Positions 16,488 to 61,191 of a stretch of 64,000 bases of DNA are shown piece by piece. The translations under genes were made by a program, and so were the position numbers. The notes under the pieces are model-generated. The model made no database searches and was not told the origin of the DNA. It was given only the letters and a program-made list of their open reading frames with translations. Origin of the DNA: Bryopsis sp. KO-2023 (lineage: Eukaryota; Chlorophyta; Ulvophyceae; Bryopsidales; Bryopsidaceae); assembly GCA_030272585.1 (NCBI GenBank), contig BSYQ01000011.1, forward strand, positions 186,001-250,000, given 5' to 3'. The stretch's first letter is position 1. Each line of letters begins with the position of its first letter.

Positions 16488-16568
16488 GTCTTGAGGCTTG
16501 GTCTCTGGCTTGGACGGTAGCTTGGTCTCCGGCTTGGTCTGCTTTTCGTTGTCACTCCAGAAGCCATC

Positions 16569-18958: not shown

Positions 18959-21900
18959 TTAGGTTCGAGTTCTGCGTTGGGCCCTAGTCTTTTTCTTAGA
19001 CTGGGTCACTTGTTTATTCTCCGGTTTGTTGGCTAAGTACTCCTTAAGCAAGTCCTGGGCATTGGCCAGGTGGCTTTCTGGCTCCCAGGTGGATTCCATC
19101 AAATCGTAGCCCTTCCAAAGGATCAGGTACTCCTTACGAGTAGTGCCCCGATCTCTGAGGATGCGCTCGACCTCGAATTCGATGGTTCCATCCACTAGCT
19201 CCCCCTCTGGAGCGTCTATCTCTCGCTGATCGTCATCAAGCCGAGAGTAAGCCTTCAATTTCGACACATGGAAAGTTGGGTGGATTTTCCAGTGGTCGGG
19301 AAGGTCAAGACGGTAGGCGACAGCCCCAATTCGGCTAGCCACCCGGAAAGGTCCAACAAATCGCCGGCGGATTTTCGGTGGGATTTTCTGAAGTGAAGCA
19401 AGGGGAATATACTTGCTTTGTACCAGCACTTCATCGCCAACCTGAAAATCCACTTTCCTTCGACGTTTGTTTGCTGAGGTGCACATGCGGTTCTGTGCCT
19501 CTGCGTATTTCGCCTTAGCGTTTCGCATTTGGTCGTCCATTCGACGTACCATCTCAGCCGCCATTTCCGATTCATCGCCCGTCCGAACTCCCTTCCTGGC
19601 AACAACTATCTGCCCCATGTTCTGGCCATACAGAAGATGGGCTGGCGCGTAGCCTGTGGAGACATTCCGTGAATTATTTGCGGCAAATTCCGCGGTCGGC
19701 AAATAATCCACCCAACGGTCTGGGTACCGTTCCACATACGGACGCAGGAAATCCTCCAGCACCCGGATGGTAACTTCCGACTGCCCATCCGTTTGAGGAT
19801 GGTATGCAGTGCTCATCCGGAGCTGGGTACCTAAAAGTTTGAAAAGGGAGGTCCAAAACAAACTTGTGAACCTTGGATCCCGATCCGAAACTATGATTTG
19901 AGGCAGCCCGTAGTGTTTGTATATGTTCTCCACGAACAGCTTTGCGTATTCTGGCGCCGTGATAGTTTTGTTACAGGGTACGAACCTCGCATACTTCGTC
20001 AATCGGTCTACAAAGACAGCGATTGCTGTAAAGCCATGGGAAGACGGTAGGTCTGTAACCAAGTCCGTCGTGATCTGTTCCCATTTCTGGTCTGGGATAG
20101 GCAACGGCTGCAAAAGACCTTTCTGTCTTTGCAAGTCCGATTTGTTTAGTTGACAAGTTGGGCACGTTTTCACGTATGCCTTTACGGCTAACCCAACGCC
20201 TTTCCACCAGTAACTGCGGGTAAGTACTTCGGTCATGCGGTCTGCTCCAACATGACCGGCACTGGGAACGTCGTGATGCTCTTCCAGAATCCGTTTCTGG
20301 AAAGAAGCAGGGACCACAAGCAAACTAGGACCTGGGTCTGTTTTGGTATAATACAAGAACCCGTCGTCCAGCTTGTATTGCGGAGAAACCCCTCGTTCCA
20401 TCCTTTCAAAGATAGGCTTGAGTTGTTCATCACTTCTCAAAGCCTCTTTCCATGCCTCCTTCTCTGCCACTTCCCAAGTGGAGAGGTTATTGAGCTGGTC
20501 TGGCGGACCAGGAAGGCTCCGGGATAACGCATCAGCCAATACATTGGCTTTCCCCTGGATATAGACGATTTTTGGACCTATGGATTGGAAAAACCCTGAG
20601 TTTAACCACCGGGTTTGGGTCCGCGACAACGTGCTCTGGTTCATGAAGTGGGTGATCGGTTTGTGGTCCGTCAACACCTTCACACCCCCATCGCATCCCT
20701 CAAGGTAGTGTCGTCACTGGGCTAAAGCATATGCTATTGCCCCCAGCCCCCGCTCATATGCGGAGTATCGCGTTTCAGCTGGTTTTAATCGTCTGGAAAG
20801 GTATGCGATTGGTTGCAAACCTTTCCCATGATCCTGGGTAAGTACCGCTCCATATGCAGTTCCAGATGCATCCGTTATTACGGTGTACTCCTTAGCCGGG
20901 TCAGGAAGGAGTAAGATCGGTGCGCGGCTAATCCGATCCTTAAGTTCGTTGTAGGCATTGCGTTGGTTCAGCCCCCATTCCCAGACAGTATCCTTCTTGG
21001 TTAGATCTGTCAAGGGACTCGCAATCCTAGCGAACTCAGGAATGAACTTACGATAGTAAGACACCATTCCCAGGAAACTTCGCACATCAGTGACCGAAGT
21101 TAACTCCTTCCATTGTTGAATAGCCTTAACCTTATCCTGCATTGGTTGAAGGCCTTTTTCCGACAAATGATACCCCAGGTAGTCCGTCTCTGCTACCCCT
21201 ACTTCGCACTTACTGGCTTTTGCGTACAACTTATGTTTCCGCAACCGTTCAAAGACCAGTTTTAGGTGCTCGACGTGCTCTTCCACCGAGTTGGAAAAGA
21301 CCAGGATGTCGTCGATAAACACCACTACAAACTCGTCAAGGAACTCCCCCAGCAAATCCTGAACCATGGTCTGGAACTGGGCTGGGCAGTTGGTCATTCC
21401 GAACGGACACACGAGAAACTCGAAATGTCCGTATCTCGTCCGGAATGCCGTCTTGGGAGTATCCTTGGGTCGAACGGGAAACTGCCAGTAGCCTGAGCGG
21501 AGGTCGATCTTCGTATAGATCTTCGCTCTGGCGAGACGGTCCATTAACTCCTCAGGAAGAGGGAGTGGATACCTATTCTTTACCGTGAACTTGTTGATCC
21601 AACGGTAATCCACACACATTCTCAACCCTCCGTCTTTCTTGGGAACAAAGAGTATGGGTGCGCCCCAGGGACTCTCGGAGGGTCGGATCTTCCTTTGCTC
21701 GAGGAGGTAATCCACCTGTGTCCTAACTTCGTCCAGCTCGGCTGGAGAGAGTTTGTACAAGGGACGGTGGATTGGGGTCATTTGTTCGTCCTCCAGGTCC
21801 ACCTTAAATTCGTGGCCTTTTCTGACTGGAGGAACGCCGGGTGGTAAGTCTTTCGGGAACACATCCTTGAAACTTGTGAGGACAGTCTTGATCCTTGGGT

Positions 21901-22084
21901 CGAGACCCGAATGCATTACCTTTTCCACATCTGGCTGGAGATAAGCCGGTGTGGTTCCAGTAGCGTTCAAACGCTCTTCTGGAATTCCCGGATATGGATA
22001 CTGCATGAGGTGTGCCATATCGTCCGGGGTGGTTGGTCGTACAACCACAAGGTATGCCTGATCAATTGCTGGACTGTTCTTCAC
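18959..22084 (-). pseudogene. Element D pol: RT, RNase H, integrase, chromodomain
   Basis: Two adjacent open frames on the minus strand. The upstream one (20714-22084) has the reverse transcriptase with the FIDD active-site motif and the start of RNase H (TDAS). The downstream one (18959-20683) has the rest of RNase H, the integrase HHCC zinc finger, the D,D-35-E core (TTDLVTDLP, SDRDPRF, SEVTIRVLE) and a C-terminal chromodomain (KEYLILWKGYD...TWEPES). The chromodomain places it in the chromovirus branch of Ty3/gypsy. It is a fossil; the reading frame is not continuous in this copy. Confidence 0.82.
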
Positions 22085-31613: not shown

Positions 31614-32036
31614 TGATAGTGAAGCTTGTGGGTGACGCAATAGTGGTCGGCTGTGTTGGTTGGATTCGTGATAACTTGCTGGCTAACGCAAGTATACTTG
31701 TGGGGTTTGTTGCTTTAGACAACTCTCTAGCTAGCGCGGTTGTGAACGCTACTAGAGCACTTAGGTTGGGAAGTGATTGCGTCAGGCAAACACTTAACAC
31801 ACACACACACACAAACACACACACAAGCGGGAACACACCAATCCCACGAATCCCGAGTTCTTACAAAGTAACTAAGAGTGTCAAAACAACGAGTGGGCCT
31901 CTTAAGTACCCCTAAGTGTAGTACGCTGACGCATGCCCCAAACTCTGGGTCTAATCTGTCTTACTCGCGAACCCACATGCGTCAGCCACCCTCGGCTCTA
32001 TCCCAAACTACCTCGTAGAGCGCTAAAAGACTAACA
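31614..32036 (-). repeat. Element A 3' LTR
   Basis: 423 bp. On the plus strand it starts TGATAGTGAAGC and ends ACTAACA. It contains a CA run and four copies of TGACGCA/TGCGTCA. The adjacent GCGGGGGGGGCGTA (in sense) is the polypurine tract. Confidence 0.9.
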
Positions 32037-41258: not shown

Positions 41259-41681
41259 TGATAGTGAAGCTTGTGGGTGACGCAATAGTGGTCGGCTGTG
41301 TTGGTTGGATTCGTGATAACTTGCTGGCTAACGCAAGTATACTTGTGGGGTTTGTTGCTTTAGACAACTCTCTAGCTAGCGCGGTTGTGAACGCTACTAG
41401 AGCACTTAGGTTGGGAAGTGATTGCGTCAGGCAAACACTTAACACACACACACACACAAACACACACACAAGCGGGAACACACCAATCCCACGAATCCCG
41501 AGTTCTTACAAAGTAACTAAGAGTGTCAAAACAACGAGTGGGCCTCTTAAGTACCCCTAAGTGTAGTACGCTGACGCATGCCCCAAACTCTGGGTCTAAT
41601 CTGTCTTACTCGCGAACCCACATGCGTCAGCCACCCTCGGCTCTATCCCAAACTACCTCGTAGAGCGCTAAAAGACTAACA
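41259..41681 (-). repeat. Element A 5' LTR with adjacent primer-binding site
   Basis: 423 bp, matching the LTR at 31614. Two bases inside it, the sense strand reads TGGTTTCGGAGCC, the primer-binding site. Confidence 0.9.
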
Positions 41682-45168: not shown

Positions 45169-46179
45169 CTATTTCTGCGACCTGGTCCTCGGCTCATGCC
45201 TCTTGGACGATGCTGGACTTGGTGGAGGGAGCGGAAGACGAGTCGCCGAGGAAGGTGCTGATGGTTGGTCTGGCGATGGTGGTGGGTGACTCTGCTGGCG
45301 GTGCGATCTGGCTGCCCCTGGAAGTTCCAAGCCGAGAGCCTGGAAATACTGGTCGTTCCAGGTGCCGACCTGTTCTTTAATCTTGCCCGGCCAGCGACCC
45401 TTGAGCGATGCCTTGGTACAGCTCGGACAGTCCGGGAGTGGGGCGTCGAACGGGAGGATCGGCTTGACGCCTTGGGTTCCCTCGCCGATGAGATCCTGGA
45501 TGCGCGGGAGGTAAGGTCCTCCCGACTTGTCGGCCGAGATGAGAGCTCCTGCCCTGGCTGCAATCCTAAGGCCGACATTGTGCTTCTTGCACAGAAGGTG
45601 CCCTTTTTCGCAGAGCACGCGATCCAATCCTGGACGGGGAGCTTCCCTTGGGTATGCGCAAGCTGCGCAGGCGAATGTGGCCGGAGCGGGTGCTGGAGGT
45701 GGTGGTGGAGGTAGGGACGATGCCTTCGGGGGTTCCTCGGATATCGGGTCATCCTCACTCCCCGAGAGCAACACTGGACCAGGCTTCGGCCTTGGGGGAA
45801 GAGCGTCCTCCAAATCGGCGTAGGGATCCTCCGTGTAGTCCCACAATTGCTGCTCGTCCTCCCCCTCGGCCTCCGCCTGGTCCACCTCCATCGCCTCGTC
45901 CAGTATGAACCTCCCCACCCCTCGGCCCTTGAGCTTCCTTGACCTCTTTCGTCGCGGGACCACCACCTTCAGTGGGGTTGACGATGGTCCCTCCGGTGGC
46001 CTTTCCATAACGACTTCTTCTTGTACCGAGTCCTCCACCGTCTCGGTTTCCACGTGCTCTTTTTCTTTTTCCTGGGCCGGAGGTTGGTCCATTTCCATAC
46101 GCTGCAGTCCACGATTGAGAGTGTCGATAGCCTCGGTCATGGCTGTTTTCGCCAGCCTTTCCCTTTCCTGCCCCCACAC
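45169..46179 (-). pseudogene. Third gene of element C: RING-like finger
   Basis: 336-residue minus-strand frame after pol. It has a basic patch (PRRKRSRKLKGRG), an acidic stretch and a Pro-rich linker. The Cys/His module follows: CAAC near 171-174, C-x3-H-x2-C-x2-H near 188-198 and CPSC near 250-253. The Arg/Ser/Pro tail ends TRSQK. A separate short coiled-coil frame (46832-46987) lies upstream, beyond a solo LTR, and probably belongs to the same gene. The layout matches the third genes of A/B and D despite little overall identity. It is part of a broken fossil. Confidence 0.65.
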
Positions 46180-46775
46180 TGTAACGGTTGGTTATCGCAG
46201 CACTCGAGCTGGAACTACAAGAGTAGTTGCCATGCTTCCTGCAGCTGAAAAAGGGAAGGTTGCAAGAGTGCAACGTGTAGGAGCAGCGTGCGAGAGTGCG
46301 GCGTGTAGGAGTGCAGCGTGCAGCGGTGCAGCGGTGCAGCGTGCAGCGGTGGATGCAGCGTGCAGCAGTGCAGAGGTGCAGCGGTGTAGAGGTGCAGAGA
46401 TGCAGAGGTGCAGTAGTGCGACACCCTTGGAGTCACGACTACAACCAAGCTCGATGGAGTTTGATGGATGATGATGTGGCAGCCATCAAAGTCGAGTTGT
46501 CAATTGGACGTGTGAGTTCTCGTGGAATAGGGGCACGTTCACAGTTGAGGTGGCAAGGAGATGTGTGAATTCCTAGTGAATAGTGACACGTCGACAGGAA
46601 CAAGGGTTTGATGCGCTGTGGCGCTAGGGTATAAGAGCGTGGAAGGAAAAGGTCGTTGTATCTTCTTTATAACTTTATTCTTGTAAGGAAGTTCTATCTA
46701 ACGAGACGCTTGAGGAAGGCACTCGTCCTCCTCTAGGAGGGCGAGGGGACCTTGAAAAAAAGTAGCCTCGTTTCA
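46180..46775. mobile_element. Solo LTR with internal minisatellite, inserted in element C
   Basis: TGTAACGG...GTTTCA, 596 bp, flanked by CACAC (46175-46179, 46776-46780). It contains a GTGCAGCG/GTGCAGAG minisatellite at about 46290-46420, a TATA-like GGTATAAGAG (about 46627) and T-rich sequence after it. The family cannot be named from the LTR alone. Confidence 0.75.
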
Positions 46776-47312
46776 CACACTGCTGCTTGCCGAAACGCAT
46801 CCAAGCGCTGCGTTTTCAGCTGGTCCTCCAACTAAGCAACTTTCTCCTCAGCGGCTTTTGCCCGCTTCTCCGCCTCATTGGCCCTATTTTGCCATTCGGC
46901 AAGTTCGGCCTCGAGCTTGTTCTTCTGCTCAGAGGACTGTCGCGCGTCCTGCAGAAATCGCTCCAAGTTGGCTGCTGTCAGATCCATGGCTTCCCCTTCT
47001 TTCTTTTTTTTTTTTTTTGTTTTCGGCCGTGTGGGCTCTCTCTTTTTTTTTTCTGATTCGATCGAACAAAGGCTTTCTGAAGCGCCTTCGTTACTTCTCC
47101 TTAAATTCGCCGATGAGGTACCGGTCAGACACATTGCGCAACTGAAAGGTACACTCTGATGTGACGAGGGATGGGAATTTCCTCCGAACTTCCGAGGTAC
47201 CGCCTCGTTTGAGGTACCGTCCCATTCCGGCCGAGGTTGACCTCATCAGTTCGTCATCATGACTTCCAACTCTTCCATCACCCTCGTCAGTTGCATCAGA
47301 AGCTTCCTCCAG

Positions 47313-50300
47313 TCATGCTCGGCCCGTTCGTGCAACGAACTCGGCCAGCAGATCTGAACAATGTGTCAGACTCTCCTTCGGCTCCCATGTTGCCTCATGG
47401 GGTTGGTATCCTTTCCAGCAAACCAAATAACGTTTTCCTCTCCCCTTTCCTTTCTCCCTGACAATAGCCTCCACCTCGTATTCCTCTTCTCCATCCAGCT
47501 CATCGATGAGAGCCGGGCCGGGAGGTGCATCCCGCACGAACTCCTCGGACCGCTTGTATTCCTTGAGCTTGGAGACGTGGAATGTAGGGTGAAGTCTCCA
47601 GCCTGGTGGGAGGTCGAGCCTATAGGCCACTGGTGATATTACGGCCTCAACCTTGAACGGCCCGATGAACCTTCGTCTGACCTTGGCCGGAATGTGCTTG
47701 GTTACGGCCAAAGGGAGGTGGGCACTTCGGAGGCAAACCTCTTGTCCCACTGCGAATTCCACATGTCGCCTCTTTTTGTTGGCGCTCTCACACATGGTCT
47801 CCTGGGCCGAAGCGTAGTTTGCTTTGGCCTCCTCCAGGTCTCGGTTCATTCGGCTCACCATGGCCTCGGCCGCCTCCACGTTAGTACTCGGCCGATCGGC
47901 CTCCAGGCCTCTTGGGTGTTGCCCATACATCAGGTAGAAAGGGGTGTATTTGGTGCTGGCGTTGACCGAATTGTTTGCAGCAAATTCGGCCGTGCTGAGG
48001 TATTCGCTCCATGTCTCCGGCCTTGCTTCAATGTAGGGCCGAAGGAAGTTCTCCAGTGTTCGGATTGTTACCTCGCTCTGTCCATCAGATTGCGGATGGT
48101 GAGCGGTTGACATCCTCAGATCGGTGCCCACGAGCCGAAACAACTCCTTGTAGAACTGGCTCGTAAATCTTGGGTCTCGATCAGACACGATAACTTCCGG
48201 TATCCTAGAGGTTGGGAATACCTTGGAGAGAAAGAGCTCGGCATATCCTTTCGCCGAAACCTCCTTGGTGCACGGGACGAACTTGCACATCTTCGTGAGC
48301 CGATCCACAAAGACAGCCACGGCCGTGTACCCGTTAGATTTCGGTAAATCGGTAACGAGGTCGGTCGTTAGCTGCTCCCACTTGTAGGCCGGAACTGGCA
48401 GAGGGTGTAGCAACCCTTTCTGCTTGGAATTCTCGGTCTTCATCATCTGGCAAGTGGGGCACGATTCGACATAGTGGTTCACGGCTCGGCGCCAGCCTCT
48501 CCACCAATGTCTTCGGCTCACAAGCTCGGCTGTCCGAGCTTTCCCTGGATGTCCCGCCATCGGCACATCGTGGTGGTCGTGCAATACCACCTGGCGTTTA
48601 GAAACCGGCACAACGAGTTTCGGCTCGGCTCCAACGTCCTTGGCTTGATACATGAGCAGTCCATCTGGGGTCAAGGTGTACCCCTGCACTGCTCGTCCCT
48701 CTTCAAGTTTGGTCACGATTGGTCGAAGAATAGGGTCCTCCTTAATGGCGGCTTGCCAGTCTTGTGCCTCCCCGGGCGAGATTTTTGCCCCCAAAATCGC
48801 ATTGAGCCGGAGTTGTGGCTTGCGAGAAAGCGCATCGGCCACAAAATTGGCTCGGCCCGGAAGATATAAAATCTTCGGCTTGATAGACTGGAACGATCCA
48901 GACTTCAACCAACGTGTTTGAGTCCGTGAAAGGACGCGTTGCTGTAGAAAATGGGTAGCTGGGAGGTGATCCGTATACACCGTAGTTCCACCAGGAGCTC
49001 CTTCCAGGTAGTGACGCCATTGGGCGAGAGCATAGGAGATGCCCAATAGTTCCCTTTCGTAGGCCGAATATTTCTGCTCGGCTGAGTTCAGGGAACGACT
49101 CAAAAATGCAATGGGCTGATAGCCTTCCTCCTTGCTGCCCTGCATTAAGGTAGCTCCCAATGCGAAGTCCGATGCATCAGTGGCAACAACATACGGCTTG
49201 GCCGGGTCCGGGATCAAGAGGACGGGGGCCGAAGTGAGTCGGTCCTTGAGCTCTTGAAACGCTGCTGTCTGGGCCGGACCCCATTCTTAGGCTTGGTCCT
49301 TCTTGACGAGCTTCTGTATGGGAGCAGCAATCCGGGAAAACTCCCTGATGAAGCGTTGGTAGTAGGACACCATGCCCAGAAAACTCCGCACTTCCGGCAC
49401 AGACTGTAGGGGCTTCCAATCTTGAATGGCTTGGGTCTTGCTGCGATGAGGGGAGATGCCGTCGGCCGAAATCCAATTTCCCACGAAATCCAGTTCTTTG
49501 ACGGCGATGGAACACTTGGACGCCTTCGCATAGAGCTGATGCTCGGCCAGCTTGTCCAGCACGAGCCGAAGGTGCTCCACGTGTTCCTCCTCCGTTTTAC
49601 TGTAGACGATGATGTCGTCCAGGAAGACCACCAGAAACTTGTCGTGGAAATCCCGGAAGAGGTCGTTCACCATCGCCATGAACTGCGGGGGTGCGTTCGT
49701 TAGGCCGAAGGGCACTACTTTGTATTCGTAGTGCCCATAACGGGTCCGAAATGCGGTCTTCTCCTGATCTTCGGCCCGGATGGGCATCTGCCAATACCCC
49801 GAGCGCAGGTCCAGCCGAGTAAAGATTTTGGCTCCCTGGAGGCGGTCCAATAACTCCTCAAGGAGAGGGAGTGGGTAGCGGTTCTTGACCGTTCGCTGGT
49901 TGATCCATCGGTAGTCAATACAAAAACGAAGCCCTCCATCCTTCTTGTTGGCGAAAAGGATGGGGGCGCCCCACGGGCTCTTTGAGGGCCGAATCAGCTC
50001 CCGGTCCAACATGTAGTCGAGCTGTTTTCGGACCTCCGCGAGTTCGGCTGGAGAGAGCTTGTACATAGGCCGAAAGATCGGCTTCGTTCCTTCCTCCAGT
50101 TCGTTCCTGACCGGTGGTGGTCCTTTAGGAAGGTCAGAAGCGAATACTCGCTTGTAGTCCGTTAAGAGCTGCGTGATCGCTTTTGAGAGCTCGGGCCGAA
50201 CTAACTTGCTGATATCATCCTTGGTATGTTCATCGTTTTGTTCGGCCTCGGCTTCAGTAACCACTACCATCACAACGTCTCCCTGTCCCGCACGCGCATC

Positions 50301-51134
50301 CTTCATTATCTTGGCCGCGGATGTCTGTTCCATGTCGCCCACGCTCATAGTCTCGGTGGGTCGAGGCTTGCCCGAGATGGCTAGAGGAAGAGAAATCCTC
50401 GTCTTCCCTCGCTGAACCGAGATTGTCCGTGTCCGAAAGCAGAGATCGGGGTTTTCGGCCACAAGCCACGGGATGCCCAAAATCATCTCGTATGCCATGC
50501 CGGGAAAGATATGGAAATCCGCGACAAAAGTGGCTCGGCCCGATCTAAATCGAACATGTTCGGCTCGGCCCCGGGTTGAGCCCTTGGAACCATCCGCCAT
50601 GACCAGGGTGCGGTGCTCTCCGGTTGCCTCCAATTCCAGTCGTGCTTGAGTTGCCGTTGAGATGTAGTTTTCCCAACTTCCGCTATCCACATACGCCTTC
50701 ACCGGTCGGTCTCCAACTTGAATGGCTATCTCGAAGCCAGTAAACCGCCCTTTGGAACAGGTGTTTCCCGTCCTGGCGATGTAAGAAAAATTGTCGGCCA
50801 CTGCAGAGTCGGCGCGACTGAGTGCCCCCGGCACTTGAGAAAAATTTGAACCGTCCATCCCTCGGTTGCCTTGCGGGCCGAGCTGTACAGTGGATGGTGG
50901 TTCCCCTGATGATACCCGAGGCCGTGCGTGGCCAGTATCATCCGCTCCTTCACTGAGTCCTGTTCCATGGGACTCGGCTCGCGCTGCAGTATTGGAACTA
51001 TGCGAGCTGGAGCTAGTGTCTATCCGTTTTTCATGCTCTTCCGCCTTGTCCGGCCAAGTAACTCTCTTGGTCATTTTTCTATCATCTATTCCTTCTGCTT
51101 GCTCCTCCCCAAAATCTTCCGGAACCTCGGCCCT
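47313..51134 (-). pseudogene. Element C pol: protease, RT, RNase H, integrase, chromodomain
   Basis: Two minus-strand frames. The upstream one (49287-51134) has a Ser-rich leader, a retropepsin (DSGS in YVDSGSWENYI, ILGIPW) and the reverse transcriptase with FLDD. The downstream one (47313-49217) has RNase H (TDAS), integrase HHCC and D,D-35-E (TTDLVTDLP, SDRDPRF, SEVTIRTLE), and a chromodomain (RYLVCWKGYQPHEATWEP). The words TCGGC and GCCGA are very frequent (about 40 by eye between 47.7 and 50.9 kb). The C fragment is cut on its upstream side by element B. It belongs to a broken fossil. Confidence 0.83.
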
Positions 51135-51556
51135 TGTTAATCTTTTAGCGCTATACGAGGTAGTTTGGGATAGAGCCGAGGGTGGCTGACGCATGTGGGT
51201 TCACGAGTAAGACAGATTAGACCCAGAGTTGGGGCATGCGTCAGCGTACTACACTTAGGGGTACTTAAGAGGCCCACTCGTTGTTTTGACACTCATAGTT
51301 ACTTTGTAAGAACTCGGGATTCGTGGGATTGGTGTGTTCCCGCTTGTGTGTGTGTTTGTGTGTGTGTGTGTGTTAAGTGTTTGCCTGACGCAATCACTTC
51401 CCAACCCAAGTGCTCTAGTAGCGTTCACAACCGCGCTAGCTAGAGAGTTGTCTAAAGCAACAAACCCCACAAGTATACTTGCGTTAGCCAGCAAGTTATC
51501 ACGAATCCAACCAACACAGCCGACCACTATTGCGTCACCCACAAGCTTCACTATCA
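51135..51556 (+). repeat. Element B 5' LTR with adjacent primer-binding site
   Basis: Starts TGTTAATC, ends TTCACTATCA. Exact TGACGCA/TGCGTCA words lie at 51187, 51237, 51386 and 51531. The primer-binding site TGGTTTCGGAGC follows two bases after the LTR. Confidence 0.92.
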
Positions 51557-51701
51557 ATTGGTTTCGGAGCGAGGCAAGAACTTTAAGTTCTTGAGATCGA
51601 AACTTGTGAACGTGGCGCAACAAACGTTTTTGTTTGTTTGTTTGGTAGAGAGAAACTCCAACCGTGGTTGTTGAGTACTCCCAAATAGTGGCTGAGAGAC
51701 C

Positions 51702-54350
51702 ATGGCTGACCGTGAACACGCATTGGCAGTGCGCGAGCCTCAAGTTGAAGAGCCAGGGATTGAACCTGAGTTCGATGAGGAATTGCCTGACGCACCCAAT
51801 GTGGTGTACCAACAAATAAACGTCCAGAACATCCACAATGTCCAGCAAGCAGCTGTCGACATAGACATGGGAGCTGATGCGGAAGCCTTAAGAGAGGATG
51901 TGGATGCGGTCCATGACCGTGTGGACGATTTAGCCCACGGGCTAAGGGGTCACCTGCAGCAAGTTGACCAGACACTGGGGCAGAGGCTAGCCCATACTGA
52001 GGCCTCTGTGTCGAACCAACTGGCTGGCGCATCAGAGGTGATCGGGCAGGCGCTGGAAACACAGCACCAGCATGCGCAACAGGTTGAGGCCACACAGCAT
52101 GCGGTGGTGTCGCAACAGGAGAAGCTGGAGTCAGTAGCGGCTCAACATAGTCGATACGAGCAGAGGCTATTACGCCAAGATATCGATCATAGAAAAGAAA
52201 GAGCCGAGATCAAAGCTTCTGTGGATGCAATAACGAGGAGAATGGATGCCGCAGACATTCTAGCGAACTCTCGTTTTGCTGACCTAAAAGAAACGGCTGA
52301 AGCATCAGCACTTCAGTTAAAACAACTCTCCGAGTTATCCCTTGTTCAAGGGCGGAGAATTGAAGGCTTATTAGGAACTGTTGAGGATTCCAACGAAAAA
52401 GTCGAACGGACTCTAGAATTGTTTCGGGAGTCCTTGCACAAACAAGGTGCTGAGGTGAAGCGTTTGCAGAGCTCAAGAGTAGCAATTCAAAAAGATTTGA
52501 TTGCCTTGGAGAAAAAGGCATCCAAAACCTGGGATCAGCAGCAAGATGCAGCTGATGTGGTTGCCTTAAGATTATCTGGCCTGGAACGAAGCATGGAGGA
52601 TGTGAGTGGCGGAAGTCAGAGTGCCCAAAGTGGAAGTGATGCTCGAGCAGTATCACCAGAGCGTGAAGAATCAACTTCCCCTGAGCCTGAGGACTCAGCC
52701 TTTGGGATGCCGCTGCCGAAGAAATCAGTAAAGCAGTTGGCTGCATCATGGCCGCCACTAGACCAGAGCTTCGCGGTAGGAATGGTTGGGGCAGGAACCT
52801 CAACAATACCGGCTCCTCCAGCAGTACAGGCCGAGGAGGGTGAAATTGTTGCTGCAGAAGCACCACCATGCACTGCAGTGGACAGCGCACCAGACGCTGA
52901 TTTCACATTCCCTCAATTGATACCTCCAAGTACAAGAGCTCAGCCTGGAGTACGCATCTCAGAACCCGACTCTGCCGATGGATCACGTAGACCCACACGA
53001 ACTAACCCAAGAGTTCTCTCCTCAGCAGAAGTGTTATATCAAATTGACCTTGAGCGTGCTAAGGCACAGGTCAGAGAAGAGAAAGGAAAAGAACCCATGC
53101 AGATCCCCACACGTACTGGAAGATTGGGACTTGGGTTAAGTGCTTTGGGAGCAAGGGTAGAAAATAATCCCTTTGCTGCACTTGGTTCATATGAGTCTAC
53201 TGGTGGACCCAGTCGAGTTCCTCGCATGCGAGGTAACTTTGGAGACCCTGGTGATGACGACCCAGATGATGATGGCGGTGATGATTACCGCGACAGACGA
53301 AACCGCCCACCTTCCCGTATTCCAGGTGCGCCTGATGGCGGAGGAGGTGGTGGCGGCGGTGGAGATGGTGGAGGCGGTGGACCTCCCGGTGGACCTCCTG
53401 GTGGAGGTGGAGGTGGGGGTGGCGCTGGACCAGCAGGCCCAGGACCTCCTAGGCAAGGACAGTGGTTGCCTAGCACCGTCAAGTTGCAAATGCCTCGCGC
53501 ATTTAACGGAAGTGGAGAACCAAAAGCCCGTAAATGGCAAGTGCTCATGACGCGGTATTTGAGAACCTGCGGAGTGCATGAAGCACAGTGGCAATCGATT
53601 ATGGCCACTAACCTTTATGGGGCTGCCTCGGATTGGTTAACGATGCAAGAGTTGAAAATTCACCGAGGTGAAAGACCACCCTTCCGTGACTGGATGGACT
53701 TCATGGATGGTTTAGCTACAGCTTTCGAATTCTCTAGTGATCGAGACGAAGCGTGGCGTGACCTCCACAAACTCAAGCAGACTGGAACGGTGAAACAGTT
53801 CGTCAAAGAGTTTCAGCGCTTGATCTTGAGAATTCCAGACCTCGAAGAGGATCACCAATATTTACTCTTCGTTGATGGACTCAAGAGTGAAGTTCAGAAG
53901 CTGGTCGCTGCAACGGTACCTCGAGATGTCGAGGCTGCCATCATATCCGCCGAACGATTGGAAGCCCTTGGAGTTGGAACACAAGGCCAAGGAGGGCAGA
54001 CCAATCAGAAAAAGAAAGGAGTCTGGCGTGGTGGAAGAAAGAAGAAAGGCCAGAATCAGGGTCAGCAGCAGCAGAATCCTACACCACCAGCCCAAGCACC
54101 ACCACAAGCTGCCGCAGGAGTGCAACAGCAGCAGCAACAGCAACAAGGACGAGAAGGACGTGGTGGTGGTGGACGTGGACGCGGTGGTGGTAACCGTGGA
54201 AGAGGACAAGCCAATCAGGGAAGACAAAACCCCCAGGGGGGAGGGGGATATCATTGTTATCTTTGTGGAAAGAAGGGTCACCCTGTGAGGCAATGTCCTA
54301 GATTGGAGGAGGTGAAAAACCTCCCCGATGTAAAAAAAATGTTAAACTGA
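51702..54350 (+). CDS. Element B gag
   Basis: 882 residues. A short acidic start is followed by long coiled-coil segments (about residues 40-320) and a Pro/Glu/Ser-rich, acidic middle. A Gly-rich hinge (about 545-585) leads to a retrotransposon gag capsid domain (about 590-740, with WLTMQELKIHRG and LHKLKQTGTVKQF). A Gln- and RGG-rich nucleocapsid region ends in one CCHC knuckle (CYLCGKKGHPVRQC). It is longer than usual Ty3 Gag because of the coiled-coil N-terminus, a trait shared by A, C and D. It binds element RNA and assembles particles, by family knowledge. Confidence 0.85.
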   Translation: MADREHALAVREPQVEEPGIEPEFDEELPDAPNVVYQQINVQNIHNVQQAAVDIDMGADAEALREDVDAVHDRVDDLAHGLRGHLQQVDQTLGQRLAHTEASVSNQLAGASEVIGQALETQHQHAQQVEATQHAVVSQQEKLESVAAQHSRYEQRLLRQDIDHRKERAEIKASVDAITRRMDAADILANSRFADLKETAEASALQLKQLSELSLVQGRRIEGLLGTVEDSNEKVERTLELFRESLHKQGAEVKRLQSSRVAIQKDLIALEKKASKTWDQQQDAADVVALRLSGLERSMEDVSGGSQSAQSGSDARAVSPEREESTSPEPEDSAFGMPLPKKSVKQLAASWPPLDQSFAVGMVGAGTSTIPAPPAVQAEEGEIVAAEAPPCTAVDSAPDADFTFPQLIPPSTRAQPGVRISEPDSADGSRRPTRTNPRVLSSAEVLYQIDLERAKAQVREEKGKEPMQIPTRTGRLGLGLSALGARVENNPFAALGSYESTGGPSRVPRMRGNFGDPGDDDPDDDGGDDYRDRRNRPPSRIPGAPDGGGGGGGGGDGGGGGPPGGPPGGGGGGGGAGPAGPGPPRQGQWLPSTVKLQMPRAFNGSGEPKARKWQVLMTRYLRTCGVHEAQWQSIMATNLYGAASDWLTMQELKIHRGERPPFRDWMDFMDGLATAFEFSSDRDEAWRDLHKLKQTGTVKQFVKEFQRLILRIPDLEEDHQYLLFVDGLKSEVQKLVAATVPRDVEAAIISAERLEALGVGTQGQGGQTNQKKKGVWRGGRKKKGQNQGQQQQNPTPPAQAPPQAAAGVQQQQQQQQGREGRGGGGRGRGGGNRGRGQANQGRQNPQGGGGYHCYLCGKKGHPVRQCPRLEEVKNLPDVKKMLN

Positions 54351-54604
54351 CCGCCAGGCAGGAAACTGCTTCGTCTGAGCCTGGCCGACGCAAACGTCGT
54401 AAGCGAAATAGAGTTCGTAGGCGGCGTAGGAAGCTAAGATCAAAAGTAGGTGCCTCGAAAAAGGTTTGTACTCACAGCGGAAAACCTGGGGAGCGGACTA
54501 GTACACCGCGTGAAGAGAGAACAGAGACACTCTCCACATCTACCCAATCGGCACATGACAACTGCGATTGGACAAATGAACAGAAGGAAAGCACACCGGA
54601 TGAG

Positions 54605-57600
54605 ATGGACGCGCCTCATGCGTCATCTGCATCTCTTCCCTCTGTTAGTGAATCTGTGGGCTCATTGGAGTCGCAGAGTAGTCTACAGGAGTCCCTGCCT
54701 GCAGACGTAGACGATAGTGGGTTTGAAACAACCCAGCGGTCTACCACAGAGCGAGTTAATGTGTCAGAAGTTCGATCAACTTCGTCAACCAAGGGTGACA
54801 CATGCCCTCTGTTAAAAATTCAAGAAGTGCCTGTGAGAGGGTACGAAGTAAAAGCACGGATCAAGACCACGGACCTTTATGCATTCATTGATTGTGGAAG
54901 TACCGCAAACTATATCAATGATAAGGTAGCGCGTGATCTCGGGTTGTCGATTACACCAAGCTCAAAGAGAGCAATGTTGGCAAACGGAGATATTACAGAA
55001 CTGGCTGGCAGCTGTAACAACCTCCGAGTAAAGATAGGAGGGCTGAAGTGCAAAATGAAAGCGGATCTGTTCCCAGACCTTGGTTATGACCTAATATTGG
55101 GCATGCCTTGGTTGCAGAAAGAAAACCCCCGCATAGACTTTCAGCAGAATGAGATTTCAGTTTGCAAAAACAGCCAAGTGTTTCATCTCCCGTTGCGTCA
55201 TCCAACCCAAGAGAGTATTGAACCTGAACGAAAAGTACAGTCGATACTGCAAGAAGTGCCAGTGACTGAGTGTTCAGCTAAGAGAATGATGCGTCATCTC
55301 AAAACAGAGACAGCATTCATGGTTGTAGTGCAAGAGTCTGAAGAGAAAGCTTTAGGCCAACATGAATTGCCTGACGCAATAGAGCGAACACAGCCATTCA
55401 ACACTGAGGATGAGATTGGCAAACTTATTCGTTCAGACACCCCTGCCGAAATTAAAAAGGTGGTAGAAACACACCGTGGTGTGTTCCCTCGTGATCTACC
55501 CCCAGGGATCCCTCCAAAGAGAAAAGGTCATGAGTTTAAGATAGACCTGGAGGATCCAACACCTATCCATCGTCCAATATACAAGCTTTCACCAGCAGAG
55601 CTGGATGAAGTGAAAGCACAAGTGGACTACCTTCTGGAACAGAAGAAAATCAAACCATCCGAGTCCCCTTGGGGCGCGCCAATCCTGTTTGTACCGAAAA
55701 AGGATGGAGGCTTAAGGATGTGTGTGGATTACAGGTGGATTAATAAGGTGACGGTGAAAAACCGGTATCCTTTACCCCTGCCAGAAGAATTGATGGATAG
55801 AGTGTTCAAAGCCAAAGTGTTCTCGAAGTTAGATCTGCGATCAGGCTATTGGCAATTTCCAGTAAGACCATCTGATACAGATAAAACAGCGTTCCGCACG
55901 AGATACGGTCACTTTGAGTTTTTGGTAGCGCCTTTTGGGCTAACTAATTGCCCAGCGCAATTCCAAACTCTAGTGCAAGACCTACTCACAGAGTTTTTAG
56001 ATGATTTTGTTGTTGTCTTTATTGATGACATACTCATCTTCTCTGAAAACATGGAACAGCATGCTGAACACTTAGAGAAAGTCCTGTCGCGACTAGCAGA
56101 ATATCAGCTTTTTGCTAAGGCAAGTAAAAGTGAGCTGGCTGTCGCAACAGTAGACTATCTTGGCTACCGCATTAGCGGAAGTGGGTTAGAACCACAGGAA
56201 CAAAAAGTGAAGGCAGTGAAGGAGTGGAAGGAACTACAGAGTGTTAGCGATGTACGTAGTTTCCTTGGAATGGTTTCATACTACAGGAAATTCATTCCCC
56301 AGTTTGCACATGTTGCTGGACCACTCCATGACTTAGTGAAAAGAGACCATCCCTGGAGATGGGGACAGGTGGAGCGTGGCGCATTCAATGAACTGAAAAA
56401 GCGTTTAAGTCAAGCTCCCGTCCTTATTTTTCCAGATGCGTCACTGCCTTACACTGTGATCACTGATGCGTCGAATGAGGCCATCGGTGCCGTGTTAACA
56501 CAGGATCACGGAGAGGGGCTACAGCCAATAGCTTACCTCTCACGTAGATTCAAGCCTGCCGAGCTTAACTATGCACCATACGACAAAGAGTTGTGTGCAA
56601 TATGTTATGCGATGGTGCAGTGGAGACATTATCTAGAAGGTTGTGCGGGTGGAGTAACAGTGTTCACTGACCACCAACCTCTGACGCATATTCTGTCGCA
56701 GAGGAACCTTTCTAGAACCCAAGCAAGATGGCTTGAGGCGGGGTACCTGACTTCGATCAACCCCAAGATCTCCTATATCAAAGGCAAGGCTAATGTGTTA
56801 GCCGATGCTCTCTCCCGCAGTGTTCCTAAGCCCGTGGAAACTGCGATGAACATTTCCACTTGGCAAGTGCATCAAGCAAGCCAAGACGAGTGGAAACAAG
56901 CCCTCCAAGCTGATAACTCCTTGGTGAAGATATTGCGGAAGCTTGAGAGTGGCGAGGAAGTTGAGGGATATTTCCTCAGAGAGGGAATACTTTGGACGGT
57001 CCCAAAGAGAGGATTAGTCGAGAAAGTGGTGGTTCCTAAAGGCCAGCGCAATAAGATTATGAAGGAGTGCCATGAGACACCTTCAGCCGGCCATACAGGA
57101 CCAGCGCGAACAGGAGAAATCCTAGCGCGGCGATATTGGTGGAAGGGGTGGATGAATGAGTTGAAGGCATTTGTGCGCGAATGCCCTGTGTGCCAACAAA
57201 TAAAGGCTGACACACAGAAGCCTATGGGCTTACTTCAACCCCTGCCAATACCTGAGCGGAAGTGGGAGCAAATTACCACTGACTTGGTGACAGATCTACC
57301 AGCATCCAATGGGTTTAGTGCTGTAGCTGTCTTTGTCGATAGACTTACCAAGTTTGTGCATTTCGCTCCATGTACTAAAGAGATTACCGCTGCAGGATAC
57401 GCCCAACTTTTTATCGAACATGTTTACCGCAACCATGGCCTACCTAAAGTGATTGTGTCTGATAGAGACCCTCGCTTTACCAGCAAGTTCTGGCAGACGC
57501 TTTTTAAAGCTCTGGGTACAGAGATTCGTATGAGTACAGCTTACCACCCTCAGACAGATGGGCAGAGTGAGGTTACCATACGTACTCTGGAAAATTTCCT

Positions 57601-58345
57601 GAGGCCATATGCTGAGAGGTATCCCCATAAGTGGGTTGAGTATTTACCTACAGCAGAGTTTGCAGCAAACAATGCAGTGAATGCGAGTACAGGGTTCGCA
57701 CCTGCATATTTGATGTATGGGTACCATCCAGAAACACCAAACATTGGTGGGACGGCAACGCAATTTCAAGTGGAAGCAGTTAAGACAATGGTAGCACGGA
57801 TGGCACAGGACTTAGATACCGCAAAAGCATATTACTCTAGAGCACAACACAGAATGTGTGTGAGTGCAAACAAGAAGAGGAAAGATATTGCTTTTGAGAA
57901 AGGGGATAAAGTCCTGATAAAAAGCCGTTTTATTCCGTTGGCTGCTTTGAACAAAGTGAGTCCCAAACTGCGCCGTCGATTTGTGGGTCCCTTTGAAATT
58001 GTGGAGAAAATATCAAAGGTGGCTTACAGAGTTCAACTTCCGGAAACATGGCTCATTCACCCAGTGTTTCATGTTTCTAAGTTCAAGCGTTATCACGCCT
58101 CGAGTGATAACAGCAGGCAGATACAACCTCCAGAAGGAGCGTTGATTGGTAGCGAAGTAGAGTATGAGGTCGAAAATATCCTAGGGGCTAGAGGTAAACG
58201 CAATCGTGAATACCTAGTGCTGTGGAAAGGATACGATCTACTTGACGCTACTTGGGAACCTGAAGCTAATCTGGTTAACGCACCAGATATACTTCGCGCA
58301 TTTAAAGAGAAAGAAAGAAAAGAGTTGCAGAAAGGAAGAGAATAG
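54605..58345 (+). CDS. Element B pol polyprotein
   Basis: 1246 residues from the first ATG, in one frame. Aspartic protease with DCGS near residue 96 and ILGMPW. Reverse transcriptase with FIDDIL near 472. RNase H with TDAS near 619. Integrase HHCC finger near 820-865. Integrase core with D in TTDLVTDLP (about 893), D in SDRDPRF (about 954) and E in SEVTIRTLE (about 988). GPF/GPY-like module (RRRFVGPFEIV). C-terminal chromodomain near 1184-1235 (EYLVLWKGYD, TWEPEA). Chromodomains guide integration to particular chromatin in chromoviruses. The gap after gag (54351-54604) means pol is expressed separately or by read-through, as the family is known to do. Confidence 0.88.
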   Translation: MDAPHASSASLPSVSESVGSLESQSSLQESLPADVDDSGFETTQRSTTERVNVSEVRSTSSTKGDTCPLLKIQEVPVRGYEVKARIKTTDLYAFIDCGSTANYINDKVARDLGLSITPSSKRAMLANGDITELAGSCNNLRVKIGGLKCKMKADLFPDLGYDLILGMPWLQKENPRIDFQQNEISVCKNSQVFHLPLRHPTQESIEPERKVQSILQEVPVTECSAKRMMRHLKTETAFMVVVQESEEKALGQHELPDAIERTQPFNTEDEIGKLIRSDTPAEIKKVVETHRGVFPRDLPPGIPPKRKGHEFKIDLEDPTPIHRPIYKLSPAELDEVKAQVDYLLEQKKIKPSESPWGAPILFVPKKDGGLRMCVDYRWINKVTVKNRYPLPLPEELMDRVFKAKVFSKLDLRSGYWQFPVRPSDTDKTAFRTRYGHFEFLVAPFGLTNCPAQFQTLVQDLLTEFLDDFVVVFIDDILIFSENMEQHAEHLEKVLSRLAEYQLFAKASKSELAVATVDYLGYRISGSGLEPQEQKVKAVKEWKELQSVSDVRSFLGMVSYYRKFIPQFAHVAGPLHDLVKRDHPWRWGQVERGAFNELKKRLSQAPVLIFPDASLPYTVITDASNEAIGAVLTQDHGEGLQPIAYLSRRFKPAELNYAPYDKELCAICYAMVQWRHYLEGCAGGVTVFTDHQPLTHILSQRNLSRTQARWLEAGYLTSINPKISYIKGKANVLADALSRSVPKPVETAMNISTWQVHQASQDEWKQALQADNSLVKILRKLESGEEVEGYFLREGILWTVPKRGLVEKVVVPKGQRNKIMKECHETPSAGHTGPARTGEILARRYWWKGWMNELKAFVRECPVCQQIKADTQKPMGLLQPLPIPERKWEQITTDLVTDLPASNGFSAVAVFVDRLTKFVHFAPCTKEITAAGYAQLFIEHVYRNHGLPKVIVSDRDPRFTSKFWQTLFKALGTEIRMSTAYHPQTDGQSEVTIRTLENFLRPYAERYPHKWVEYLPTAEFAANNAVNASTGFAPAYLMYGYHPETPNIGGTATQFQVEAVKTMVARMAQDLDTAKAYYSRAQHRMCVSANKKRKDIAFEKGDKVLIKSRFIPLAALNKVSPKLRRRFVGPFEIVEKISKVAYRVQLPETWLIHPVFHVSKFKRYHASSDNSRQIQPPEGALIGSEVEYEVENILGARGKRNREYLVLWKGYDLLDATWEPEANLVNAPDILRAFKEKERKELQKGRE

Positions 58346-58795
58346 GGAAACAGAGTGTTTGATGGCTAAGGTGGAACTCCTTATAGCAAGGGGGCGCGAA
58401 AAAGGATACCTTAGAAAAATTCTGTCGACTTCCAAACCAACTCTTTATCTTTAATGCGTTAGGTGCCTAAGTTATTTGGCTGGCGCAGTAAGTGTAGCTT
58501 CAGTAGTACTTTAGAAACCGGGCAAACGATGTCACATTCGAGATAGTGTGGTTGTTCCGAGAAAACCCCTATCAAGTGACGTGTTGAGGTGGTCTTGACG
58601 AGACTCCAACCGAGCGAAACGTTGGTGTCTCACCCCAATAACCCAACGAGGAAAGTGTACGAGTCACCCAGCCTTATAAGCGCAGCCCTCGAACCATTTT
58701 GCCCTAGTGTTTGTGTAAACGGAGCGAGCTCCTGAGTAAAAAAAAAGTCTAAAGACGCACAAACCGTTGTTATTTCTTTCTTTCCGATAAACATA

Positions 58796-60577
58796 ATGGC
58801 TGCCGACACACCCGCCGCAATTATTGCGAGGTTGGAAGCGGAGGTAGCTCAAAAAGAAGAGGAGCTGCAGCACTTTACGTCGACCGCAGAGGAAGTGCTG
58901 CAGAACAATGAGGCCTTAACCCGGCAGCTCTCAGAGTTGAGTGACCGGACGAAAGCAGCTGAGGCTGCGAAGGAGGCAGCGGAGAAAGCCAAGGATAAGG
59001 CGGAGGCGGAAAAGAAAGAAGCGGAGGACAAGACTAAGGTCTTGGAGGAAAAATTGGAAGCCATGAAGCTGAAGAAGCAGCGGTTCCAATCTCACATGAT
59101 GGCTAACCATCGTGAGAATGACCTCCGTAAACAAGCTCTCGGGGGAATAGTGGATCGATTTACCGCGGTAGAGGAAACGCTGCAGCGAGCTGTAGCAACC
59201 GCGTGGAGTGCAGCAGCCAACAACCTTAAGAAGGAATTGGCAGAACAAGAGCTGCAGATCGATTTGCTGGGAGAGTCCCTCAGAGACGGCTCTGAAAAAC
59301 TTCAAGTGCAGAGCGAAACAACGGACAAGATGCTGCGTTTGAACCCGGCGGTACCAGCACCACGGGTACGCGAAGAACTGGATCGCCAAGTCCAAGTTCT
59401 GTTGTCAAACGCAACACTTGATCTGGAACCGTCCAAGGACGATGATGCGGGAGGCTCAAGCAAGGGCAAGGGGAAAGGGAAAAACAAACGCCCAAGCTCG
59501 CCGTGTAGGGATGAAGATCCACACGGAAAGAGAAGGCGAGAGGACGGTGACGATGAAGGTGGTGAGCCACCGAGGGATCGTATGCCTGGAGATGCAGCAA
59601 GAGCCAACTTGTTACTCAAGTTAAAGGCTGCCGCATTAAAGACTCCAGCACCCTCACAACCAGCACCAACAGTTCAGACTCCCGGAGATGAGGCTACCGC
59701 AATAGCACCGGGGGAGGACTTATTCGACATGAGAGAGGAGGAGCTTTTGGACTTGGATTTTCACGAAGAAATTGACTTCGGCAGTCCACCTCCTAGGCTC
59801 GAAGGTCCTAGTTCTGAACTGGAGGACGGGGAAATCAGGAATGATGAAGGGCCAAGCCAGGTGACAGAGGTTCAGCGTGCGGTCCATCCACCGTTGGAGT
59901 TAGCTCCAACAGAAGCAGCACTTCGGGCTTTCCGAGAAAAGGTTAAGCTCAGGAGATTAAGGGCGGCTGCTCAGGACAAAGTGGATGCTGCACCTAGCGA
60001 AGTGAACCTGTCACGGGAGGATCTCGAGGAGGCTTGCAACCCCATCACTGCGTCAGAGAAATGGCCGAAGGTCCAATATACTAACCCCAGGGACCGAGCC
60101 TTGCAAAATTACCGCGGCAACCGGCACTTTCACGAGTTGCCCATGTGCATTTGGTGCGGGAGAAGCCCAATGCAGGCAAGTGCTCAGCGGCTGACGCAGA
60201 AGAAGTATTCCGTCCTTCCTTGTGGGTATCACCTCGTGTGTGATGCTCATTGGTTGGCATACTCGATGCTGGGGCGCATCGTCACGGCGGTCCAAAAAGT
60301 CGCGGAAGTGGACAACAAGTCCATCGCCACCGTCTCCCCATTCTCTCTACCTGCCCATATGTTGAAGCTGACACGCTCGACGTTCGAAGAAATCCCTTCG
60401 TTCCCGGCTGAGCACGAGAAGTTGCCACACTGCAACATGTGTGTGAAGCGGCAGCTCAAGGTGTCCGGCATCACAAGGGATCTGCCATTCCTTAAGTCCA
60501 AGAGGGTGGCTGCCGCATTTGATCCCTGTGTCCGGTATCGTGCAGTGCAGCAAGCGCAAGCGCAGGAACAGCGTTAA
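58796..60577 (+). CDS. Third gene of element B: coiled coil plus RING-like finger
   Basis: 593 residues, starting MAADTPAAIIARLEAE, about 450 bp after pol, so it needs its own mRNA (spliced or from an internal promoter). Coiled coil at about 8-190, then a basic KGKGKNKRP patch (nuclear-localisation-like), an acidic middle, and a Cys/His module: CIWC near 451-454, C-x2-H-x2-C-x2-H-W near 476-486, CNMC near 546-549. The spacing fits a RING-type eight-ligand cross-brace with His at ligands 4 and 6. There is no signal peptide, no membrane segment and no envelope-like feature. Two nearly identical copies (A and B) keep it open. The role is unknown; a DNA- or chromatin-acting accessory protein is one idea, a ubiquitin ligase another. 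Confidence 0.82.
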   Translation: MAADTPAAIIARLEAEVAQKEEELQHFTSTAEEVLQNNEALTRQLSELSDRTKAAEAAKEAAEKAKDKAEAEKKEAEDKTKVLEEKLEAMKLKKQRFQSHMMANHRENDLRKQALGGIVDRFTAVEETLQRAVATAWSAAANNLKKELAEQELQIDLLGESLRDGSEKLQVQSETTDKMLRLNPAVPAPRVREELDRQVQVLLSNATLDLEPSKDDDAGGSSKGKGKGKNKRPSSPCRDEDPHGKRRREDGDDEGGEPPRDRMPGDAARANLLLKLKAAALKTPAPSQPAPTVQTPGDEATAIAPGEDLFDMREEELLDLDFHEEIDFGSPPPRLEGPSSELEDGEIRNDEGPSQVTEVQRAVHPPLELAPTEAALRAFREKVKLRRLRAAAQDKVDAAPSEVNLSREDLEEACNPITASEKWPKVQYTNPRDRALQNYRGNRHFHELPMCIWCGRSPMQASAQRLTQKKYSVLPCGYHLVCDAHWLAYSMLGRIVTAVQKVAEVDNKSIATVSPFSLPAHMLKLTRSTFEEIPSFPAEHEKLPHCNMCVKRQLKVSGITRDLPFLKSKRVAAAFDPCVRYRAVQQAQAQEQR

Positions 60578-60772
60578 GGAGGCGGGAAAAGGAGTTATCG
60601 TCGACCAAGTGTGTGCGTGCAGCAGCTGTCAGAGACGTCAGAGCAAGAGACAGGTCCAAGACAGTTGGGTGTGGGTATGGGAGTGGGTGAATTTTGTGTT
60701 TGTGTTTTTGTGTTTTTGTTTTTCTGTGTGTTTTGGTGTGCGTGGGCGCCCACTTTTTGCGGGGGGGGCGTA
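60578..60772 (+). other. Element B 3' untranslated region and polypurine tract
   Basis: G/T-rich sequence ending in GCGGGGGGGGCGTA, the polypurine tract directly before the 3' LTR. Confidence 0.7.
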
Positions 60773-61191
60773 TGTTAATCTTTTAGCGCTATACGAGGTA
60801 GTTTGGGATAGAGCCGAGGGTGGCTGACGCATGTGGGTTCACGAGTAAGACAGATTAGACCCAGAGTTGGGGCATGCGTCAGCGTACTACACTTAGGGGT
60901 ACTTAAGAGGCCCACTCGTTTTGACACTCATAGTTACTTTGTAAGAACTCGGGATTCGTGGGATTGGTGTGTTCCCGCTTGTGTGTGTGTTTGTGTGTGT
61001 GTGTGTGTTAAGTGTTTGCCTGACGCAATCACTTCCCAACCCAAGTGCTCTAGTAGCGTTCACAACCGCGCTAGCTAGAGAGTTGTCTAAAGCAACAAAC
61101 CCCACAAGTATACTTGCGTTAGCCAGCAAGTTATCACGAATCCAACCAACACAGCCGACCACTATTGCGTCACCCACAAGCTTCACTATCA
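60773..61191 (+). repeat. Element B 3' LTR
   Basis: 419 bp, same as the 5' LTR apart from one 3-bp indel. Followed by GCCCT, the right target duplication. Confidence 0.92.

Follow-up and report, generated by a model that had tools for sequence, protein, structure and literature searches.

A third gene with a RING-like Cys/His module in Ty3/gypsy chromoviruses of the green alga Bryopsis

When an LTR retrotransposon has an extra gene downstream of pol, the gene is usually either labelled env-like or given no explanation. In plant elements, sense additional ORFs lying between pol and the 3′ LTR (aORF-3S) have been discussed as env-like (PMC7264820). An aORF protein present in many copies of the sunflower chromovirus Tekay was suggested to modulate RNA silencing and likened to DRBM proteins; in the same work, aORF proteins carry nuclear localisation signals and chromoviruses serve as an example of 5′ aORFs (PMC11728184). 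The Selaginella element SM1-Galahad, a chromodomain-type Ty3/gypsy, carries additional short ORFs 3′ of its main frame, the 113-aa ORF3 being a separated chromodomain (PMC3350952). An orchid Ty3/gypsy element carries an ORF for a 2-ODD (m6A demethylase), which was kept through several replication rounds and proposed to affect element control (PMC9289625).

Here, we describe a sense gene, ORF3, found between pol and the 3′ LTR of the chromodomain Ty3/gypsy elements of the coenocytic green alga Bryopsis sp. KO-2023. ORF3 resembles aORF-3S in its position, its orientation, its presence in most copies and the lack of an assigned role; however, it encodes a zinc-type module, has no membrane segment and belongs to green-alga chromoviruses, while the main text of the aORF-3S review does not contain the terms “zinc finger”, “coiled-coil” or “RING” (PMC7264820). 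Like the Tekay aORF, it is a chromovirus gene conserved in many copies, but it carries a zinc module instead of a DRBM-like protein and is located at the 3′ rather than the 5′ side (PMC11728184). SM1-Galahad shares the type of element and the downstream position of the extra ORFs but differs in the nature of its ORF3, and the available part of that report mentions no zinc module (PMC3350952). The orchid 2-ODD ORF is likewise an extra gene retained by its element; however, it encodes an enzyme domain with clear host relatives and was recently acquired, whereas the Bryopsis module is common to diverged families and no relative of it was found (PMC9289625). A literature search, conducted mostly outside subscription journals, yielded neither a description of such a gene nor a paper on the Bryopsis KO-2023 nuclear genome, which agrees with the preliminary description, where the genes were taken for a group not yet described.

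The window, that is the whole analysed stretch of 64,000 nucleotides, comes from contig C11 of an assembly of 91 Mb in 28 contigs. Elements A (31614-41681, minus strand) and B (51135-61191, plus strand) belong to the same family and are ~98% identical across 9.5 kb. Their LTRs have TG..CA ends and 5-bp target duplications, which were tested for these two elements. The 5′ LTR (51135..51556, +; target duplication GCCCT) and 3′ LTR (60773..61191, +) of B align without a mismatch over 419 positions, with 3 gap positions, while the 3′ LTR (31614..32036, −) and 5′ LTR (41259..41681, −; target duplication ACCAC) of A show 0 differences in 423. The LTRs of each pair are nearly identical, and both elements are young. 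Element B is composed of three separate ATG frames in the order gag, pol and ORF3. Its gag (51702..54350, +) matches Pfam Retrotrans_gag and Ty3_capsid above the cut-off; the zinc knuckle remains below it, with a CxxCx4Hx4C motif visible in the translation, while the CCHC knuckle of D gag is above the Pfam cut-off. The pol of B (54605..58345, +) contains PR, RT, RNaseH, IN and a chromodomain by Pfam. The pol of C (47313..51194, −; Pfam and translation) occupies two frames with one in-frame stop in the window copy, and the RT-to-chromodomain part of D pol (18959..22084, −; Pfam) also lies in two frames. Pfam detects RT, RNaseH, integrase and a C-terminal chromodomain in B, C and D, which identifies them as Ty3/gypsy chromoviruses; in all three, the Chromo domain lies in the integrase half of the pol upstream of ORF3, and pol identity among them is 48-68%.

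Several features of these elements are worth recording. The minus-strand pol frame of C extends into the 5′ LTR of B at 51134-51194; thus, B seems to have been inserted into C. In A, pol (34497-38262, −) is divided between two overlapping frames, as compared to a single frame in B, and therefore looks broken despite the identical LTRs. The 5′ untranslated segment of A (41107-41256) is inverted relative to that of B (51553-51702), with an inverted copy of the primer-binding-site sequence at its far end.

All four third-gene frames indicated in the preliminary description were present at the coordinates and on the strands given there. ORF3 is an open ATG frame of 593 aa in B (P0001; 58796..60577, +), 604 aa in A (P0002; 32232..34046, −) and 589 aa in D (P0003; 16569..18338, −). 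In C, the C-terminal part containing the module is an open frame of 336 aa (P0004; 45169..46179, −), while the N-terminal coil, previously noted as detached, is translated from its ATG up to an insertion (46778..46987, −) with one stop codon. The detachment is accounted for by a solo-LTR-like repeat of ~598 nt (46180..46777, −; the bounds are the limits of the reading frame), which interrupts the C frame. This repeat has 40 scored matches in the genome, several of them paired kilobases apart, and is flanked by a 5-bp duplication, GTGTG, identified by eye. It looks like the solo LTR of another element.

The feature common to the ORF3 proteins is a Cys/His module near the C terminus. A six-frame scan of the window found the pattern CxxC-x(14-21)-C-x(2,3)-H-xx-C-xx-H-x(50-60)-CxxC four times and no more, each time in ORF3; 60,000 shuffled versions of the three ORF3 proteins did not contain it once. 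From C1 to C8, the pattern scan places the module at 60146-60442 (+) in B, 32400-32696 (−) in A, 16908-17162 (−) in D and 45418-45669 (−) in C. The spacing is C2C-21-C2H2C2H-60-C2C in A/B, C2C-14-C2H2C2H-53-C2C in D and C2C-15-C3H2C2H-50-C2C in C. Thus, the shared pattern proposed earlier holds for all four genes, except that the first spacing ranges over 14-21 and not 15-21 residues. P0001-P0004, P0009, P0011 and L061-L076 show eight Cys/His ligands arranged as in a RING, a CxxC standing at either end, and each complete module has His as ligand 6. The first CxxC varies (CAAC, CTAC, CIAC, CPCC, CVAC, CPAC, CMGC, CIWC, CLWC, CYYC, and CLVC only in L075/P0011), and the C families end in CPxC. 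With this arrangement of ligands, the module would be expected to bind zinc.

A search with gag revealed a further family, E, with 57% gag identity. One E copy (L081) has an ORF3 that apparently ends before any module, and we considered that E might be a module-less family. This was rejected, as L081 is a short copy: other E copies mostly have longer ORF3 frames, many of 640-670 aa as compared to 535 aa. A stretch of 261 nt from a second copy, chosen from the frame lengths and ending before the last CxxC (ligands 7 and 8), reads CYYC-x13-C-x2-H-x2-C-x2-H-W and thus contains the first six ligands, followed by residues that resemble D. Thus, judging from this stretch, the module probably extends to family E.

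The preliminary description had proposed one third gene shared across diverged chromovirus families. Between families, the modules are only 14-26% identical. We found that an hhalign comparison of A/B, D and E with 11 C-type modules gave an E value of 1.8e-6 (score 34.4, 118 columns), while ligand-preserving column shuffles scored 6.9 on average and 29.5 at maximum, with 0 of 100 reaching 34.4. An earlier comparison without E had given P 4.5e-5. A basic residue two positions after C8 and the general shape of the tail beyond it are also common to the families. We take this as showing common descent of the modules and a relationship that goes beyond the Cys/His spacing, which answers the concern that they might fall into unrelated folds. 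The N-terminal parts of E, D and A/B aligned with scores within the range of shuffles, showing no significant alignment between families, and the view that ORF3 is one gene therefore rests on the module, the position and the architecture.

ORF3 is present genome-wide in copies of A/B, C and D. For A/B, all 74 scored matches (from 299 first-look candidates) were full length, without stops and 98-100% identical. ORF3 of D had 76 matches, of which 47 span residue 1 to at least 579, the others being pieces; 43 of these 47 lacked stops. The module pattern was found in 59 of 60 retrieved A/B and D copies, L054 being the exception. ORF3 of C had 105 matches, ranging from 100% down to ~30% identity; the best 28 are free of stops, begin at query residue 1 or 2 and end at 336, and 27 of them (the window copy aside) have open frames of 404-491 aa. 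Because the C-type pol search scored 70 of 1954 first-look candidates, it covers only a part of these copies. An ORF3 match was located 525-1137 nt downstream on the same strand in 56 of the 70, a few of them covering the N-terminal part only, and 4 of the other 14 gained a module match in a search with P0011. Thus, most scored C-type copies (60/70) carry the additional sense 3′ ORF. The module read from one of those four (L076) has all eight ligands, as do the 15 C-related stretches L061-L075, giving 16 of 16. A complete module is absent from stretches L077, L080 and L082. No ORF3 match was found downstream of the C-type pol matches at C1:9037352, C11:2739556 and C6:6297582 (3/70), while those at C14:1976433 and C8:1833948, also without an ORF3 match, bear other deletions.

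A separate set of five short module genes of the P0011 type was found only on contig C2 (1320365, 1465228, 1727148, 5176118 and 5770442), one of them annotated as BSKO_02527. This contig also holds many decayed ORF3 pieces, and the five copies could be relics or a domesticated set.

We then asked whether the frame evolves neutrally. In A/B, pN/pS was 0.096 for ORF3 and 0.038 for the module (residues 440-560), as compared to 1.4 and 2.9 in the other two frames. In D, the values were 0.172 for ORF3, 0.11 for the module and 1.8 and 2.1 for the other frames. For A/B, the 30 best-scoring of 74 copies were used, and for D, the top 30 of 76, a choice that favours intact copies; however, the pol part in the same A/B pieces, which played no part in choosing the copies, gave the same value of 0.096. 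The pol of D gave 0.37; poor alignment at the flanks has probably raised this value, and D pol did not serve as a reference. Among C modules, dN/dS was 0 to 0.146 in 12 of 14 pairs, the other two having saturated dS. Thus, ORF3 is not neutral in these copies, and in A/B it is under purifying selection as strong as that on pol.

Divergence of ORF3 is far above that of pol. Two pairs picked for contrasting identities were compared, with z based on average synonymous sites per codon: between C and C10:788k, pS was 0.333 in the last 200 pol codons and 0.671 in the downstream module (z 5.0), and for C against C5:1149k, pol gave 0.054 and the first 235 ORF3 codons 0.211 (z 3.9). ORF3 thus appears older than the pol adjoining it. 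This suggests that ORF3 has been exchanged between elements, which template switching would explain; different local constraint on the two regions is an alternative source of the contrast.

The module has also been lost. A sub-family at 82% pol identity comprises seven pol matches with 1358-aa frames and without an ORF3 match. One deletion junction that removes the module is common to five copies with an open 1358-aa pol and was read directly in L077, demonstrating that a lineage with open pol and without the module has multiplied. Since these five copies share the deletion, ORF3 seems not to be needed in cis. It follows that ORF3 either acts in trans or is dispensable, and the deletion-bearing copies could mean that it is plainly dispensable and not supplied in trans.

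Regarding the rest of the protein, heptad-like windows in the N-terminal part numbered 85 in A/B (shuffled mean 5.4, maximum 41), 61 in D (mean 0.5, maximum 11) and 21 in the C relative P0009 (mean 0.1, maximum 4), while the 23 in the partial E sequence were within the range of shuffles (mean 12, maximum 41). The N-terminal coiled coil noted earlier for A/B and D is thus borne out. Basic clusters were found in all four ORF3 sequences tested, a weak sign of nuclear entry. No transmembrane segment was detected: in four sequences, two of them partial, the maximum 19-residue hydropathy was 1.01, below the transmembrane threshold of 1.6 on this scale, in line with the lack of membrane features in the preliminary description. 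Together, the heptad-like coil of A/B, D and C, the basic clusters and the lack of a membrane-like stretch suggest an oligomer that might enter the nucleus.

The module had been described as a RING-like zinc fold with eight ligands and His at ligands 4 and 6. The layout and the order of the ligands agree with this. In a RING, one strand precedes C3, another links H4 to C5, and a helix follows H6. The AlphaFold2 model of the C module (pLDDT 93.3, pTM 0.88) shows the same order, with a strand ending just ahead of C3, a second one in the H4-C5 interval and a helix directly after H6; the A/B module was modelled with low confidence. However, the RING consensus has Cys as ligand 6, with ligands 6 and 7 separated by 4-48 residues, and E2-binding RINGs have Ile, Leu or Val before C2. 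The Bryopsis modules depart from this, with His as ligand 6, a loop of 47-60 residues (the value of 47 being confined to L062 and L063), and Ala, Cys, Gly, Trp or Tyr before C2; a hydrophobic E2-contact residue, Val, stands there only in the L075/P0011 type. Foldseek found no significant match of the C model in PDB or BFVD, with HOIP-RBR appearing only at E 6.5. None of 16 rows and none of 8 sequences scored above the curated cut-off of Pfam RING models (best bits shown, 14.9 versus 27). Below the threshold, zf-RING_5 and Prok-RING_4 matched 3 of 16 rows each, as did Zn_ribbon_8, and UBZ and other zinc models also appeared; one of 10 ligand-preserving shuffles also matched a RING model. Compared with solved structures, the module sequence gave one chance-like match, to thioredoxin reductase (E 0.71). 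Thus, the module can be called RING-like in layout, while a RING fold is unproven.

RING finger proteins with long coils, for example of the Bre1 type, combine an N-terminal coil with a C-terminal eight-ligand module and CPxC. ORF3 shares these traits but differs in its His ligand 6, its mostly longer loop between ligands 6 and 7 and the lack of a significant match to RING profiles or folds. Lentiviral accessory proteins and the zinc/coil silencing suppressors of plant viruses are trans-acting, fast-diverging accessory proteins with Cys/His motifs, and the likeness of ORF3 to them is by analogy only.

ORF3 is strongly selected, diverges at the level of families, seems to have been exchanged and can be lost, which together give the profile of an accessory factor that acts on the host, such as a counter to silencing. 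We place at about even the chance that ORF3 is an ancestral trans-acting accessory gene of Bryopsis chromoviruses, the product of which oligomerises and acts, probably in the nucleus, on a host partner. The protein would consist of an N-terminal coiled coil, a basic linker resembling a nuclear signal and a C-terminal eight-ligand zinc module. It would be no envelope and would stand outside the catalytic core; most likely, it would act in trans on a nuclear host partner and so keep the element expressed or aid its cDNA or integrase. Oligomerisation, nuclear site, trans action and host target are all inferred. Docking to the ubiquitin machinery through a RING-like fold is the foremost candidate mechanism, though we hold it to be rather unlikely.

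A rival explanation is that ORF3 is a RING E3 ubiquitin ligase: a host silencing factor would be selected or clustered by the coil and degraded after the module has recruited an E2. The eight ligands in RING-like order, the terminal CPxC of the C families, the predicted order of strands and helix in the C model and the sub-threshold zf-RING_5 and Prok-RING_4 matches all point this way. We consider it unlikely, as every complete module has His at ligand 6, the residue before C2 is mostly unlike that of E2-binding RINGs, Foldseek found no significant match to a solved RING, and the RING signal is equalled by Zn_ribbon_8 and reproduced by a shuffle. Outside an accessory role, the main rival is that ORF3 belongs to the particle, where it would have a structural or nucleic-acid-binding task as a second nucleocapsid-like or assembly protein and would be required to package the cDNA or bring it into the nucleus. 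A coil, basic linkers and a zinc module would suit RNA or DNA binding, and selection in A/B equals that on pol; however, gag already has a CCHC knuckle, the divergence far exceeding that of pol is unusual for a core particle part, and the multiplication of module-less copies with open pol is compatible with this role only if the part is supplied in trans. On balance, we regard a particle component as rather improbable.

The remaining explanations carry far less weight. ORF3 lies in sense orientation between pol and the 3′ LTR, where plant env-like genes sit (PMC7264820), and might be taken for a decayed or highly diverged envelope-like gene; yet the low hydropathy of the four sequences, the conserved zinc-type module and the long coil with basic clusters make this very improbable. 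That the pattern arose by chance in unrelated frames, as the low identity between families might be taken to imply, has a negligible probability and was ruled out by the pattern shuffles, the hhalign control and the codon-position pattern of selection.

Relatives of ORF3 outside Bryopsis were not found in annotated protein records, unannotated algal genomes lying outside this search. With 7960 candidates scored, the protein search returned 3 proteins, two from Bryopsis and one from a record labelled Parasphingorhabdus; earlier protein searches had scored only the 8000 candidates sharing most words. A host-captured gene was also considered and rejected, since no host relative was found and the annotated Bryopsis proteins with module or ORF3 parts look like element pieces. 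The labelled record, P0009, is a 1153-nt sequence of Parasphingorhabdus sp. that is 92% identical to C-family ORF3. Parasphingorhabdus is a genus in the bacterial community of the Bryopsis culture (PMC12509668), and P0009 is probably algal DNA in a bacterial bin from that culture. As the only query, it gave no match in phage records or viral contigs.

One module can thus be traced within a single genome through A/B, several sub-families of C, D and probably E. A further proposal, tentative and in our view doubtful, is that the module is a new zinc fold and the hallmark of a family of accessory proteins encoded by retrotransposons. Chromoviruses with no need to leave the cell would then carry a counter-silencing factor that is diffusible and exchangeable and possibly works through ubiquitin. 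Elements would trade it as a cassette, much like the accessory or env genes of retroviruses, and module-less copies would parasitise those that make the module. The natural module-less copies, the signs of exchange and the pol-level selection in A/B make the accessory-gene role testable in a culturable alga, which bears on the accessory genes of elements with no need to leave the cell.

Additional peculiarities of the window concern mainly element D. A gag piece inside D (22012-23052, +) lies on the strand opposite to its pol and ORF3, while another copy has gag and ORF3 on one strand (e.g., C2:3149922 and C2:3143463). Tandem 90-nt units at 28631-28959, within an ORF at 28031-29122 (−), encode a repeated GGRGPPPNxF-type peptide, and this ORF has no Pfam match at 0.001. 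A hAT transposase frame of 778 aa with Dimer_Tnp_hAT is nested in D (24648-26984, +). The likely LTRs of D (15421-16488 and 29119-30187) have 26 differences in 1068, and each holds a 218-bp inverted repeat that is 96-98% complementary with a 19-nt loop.
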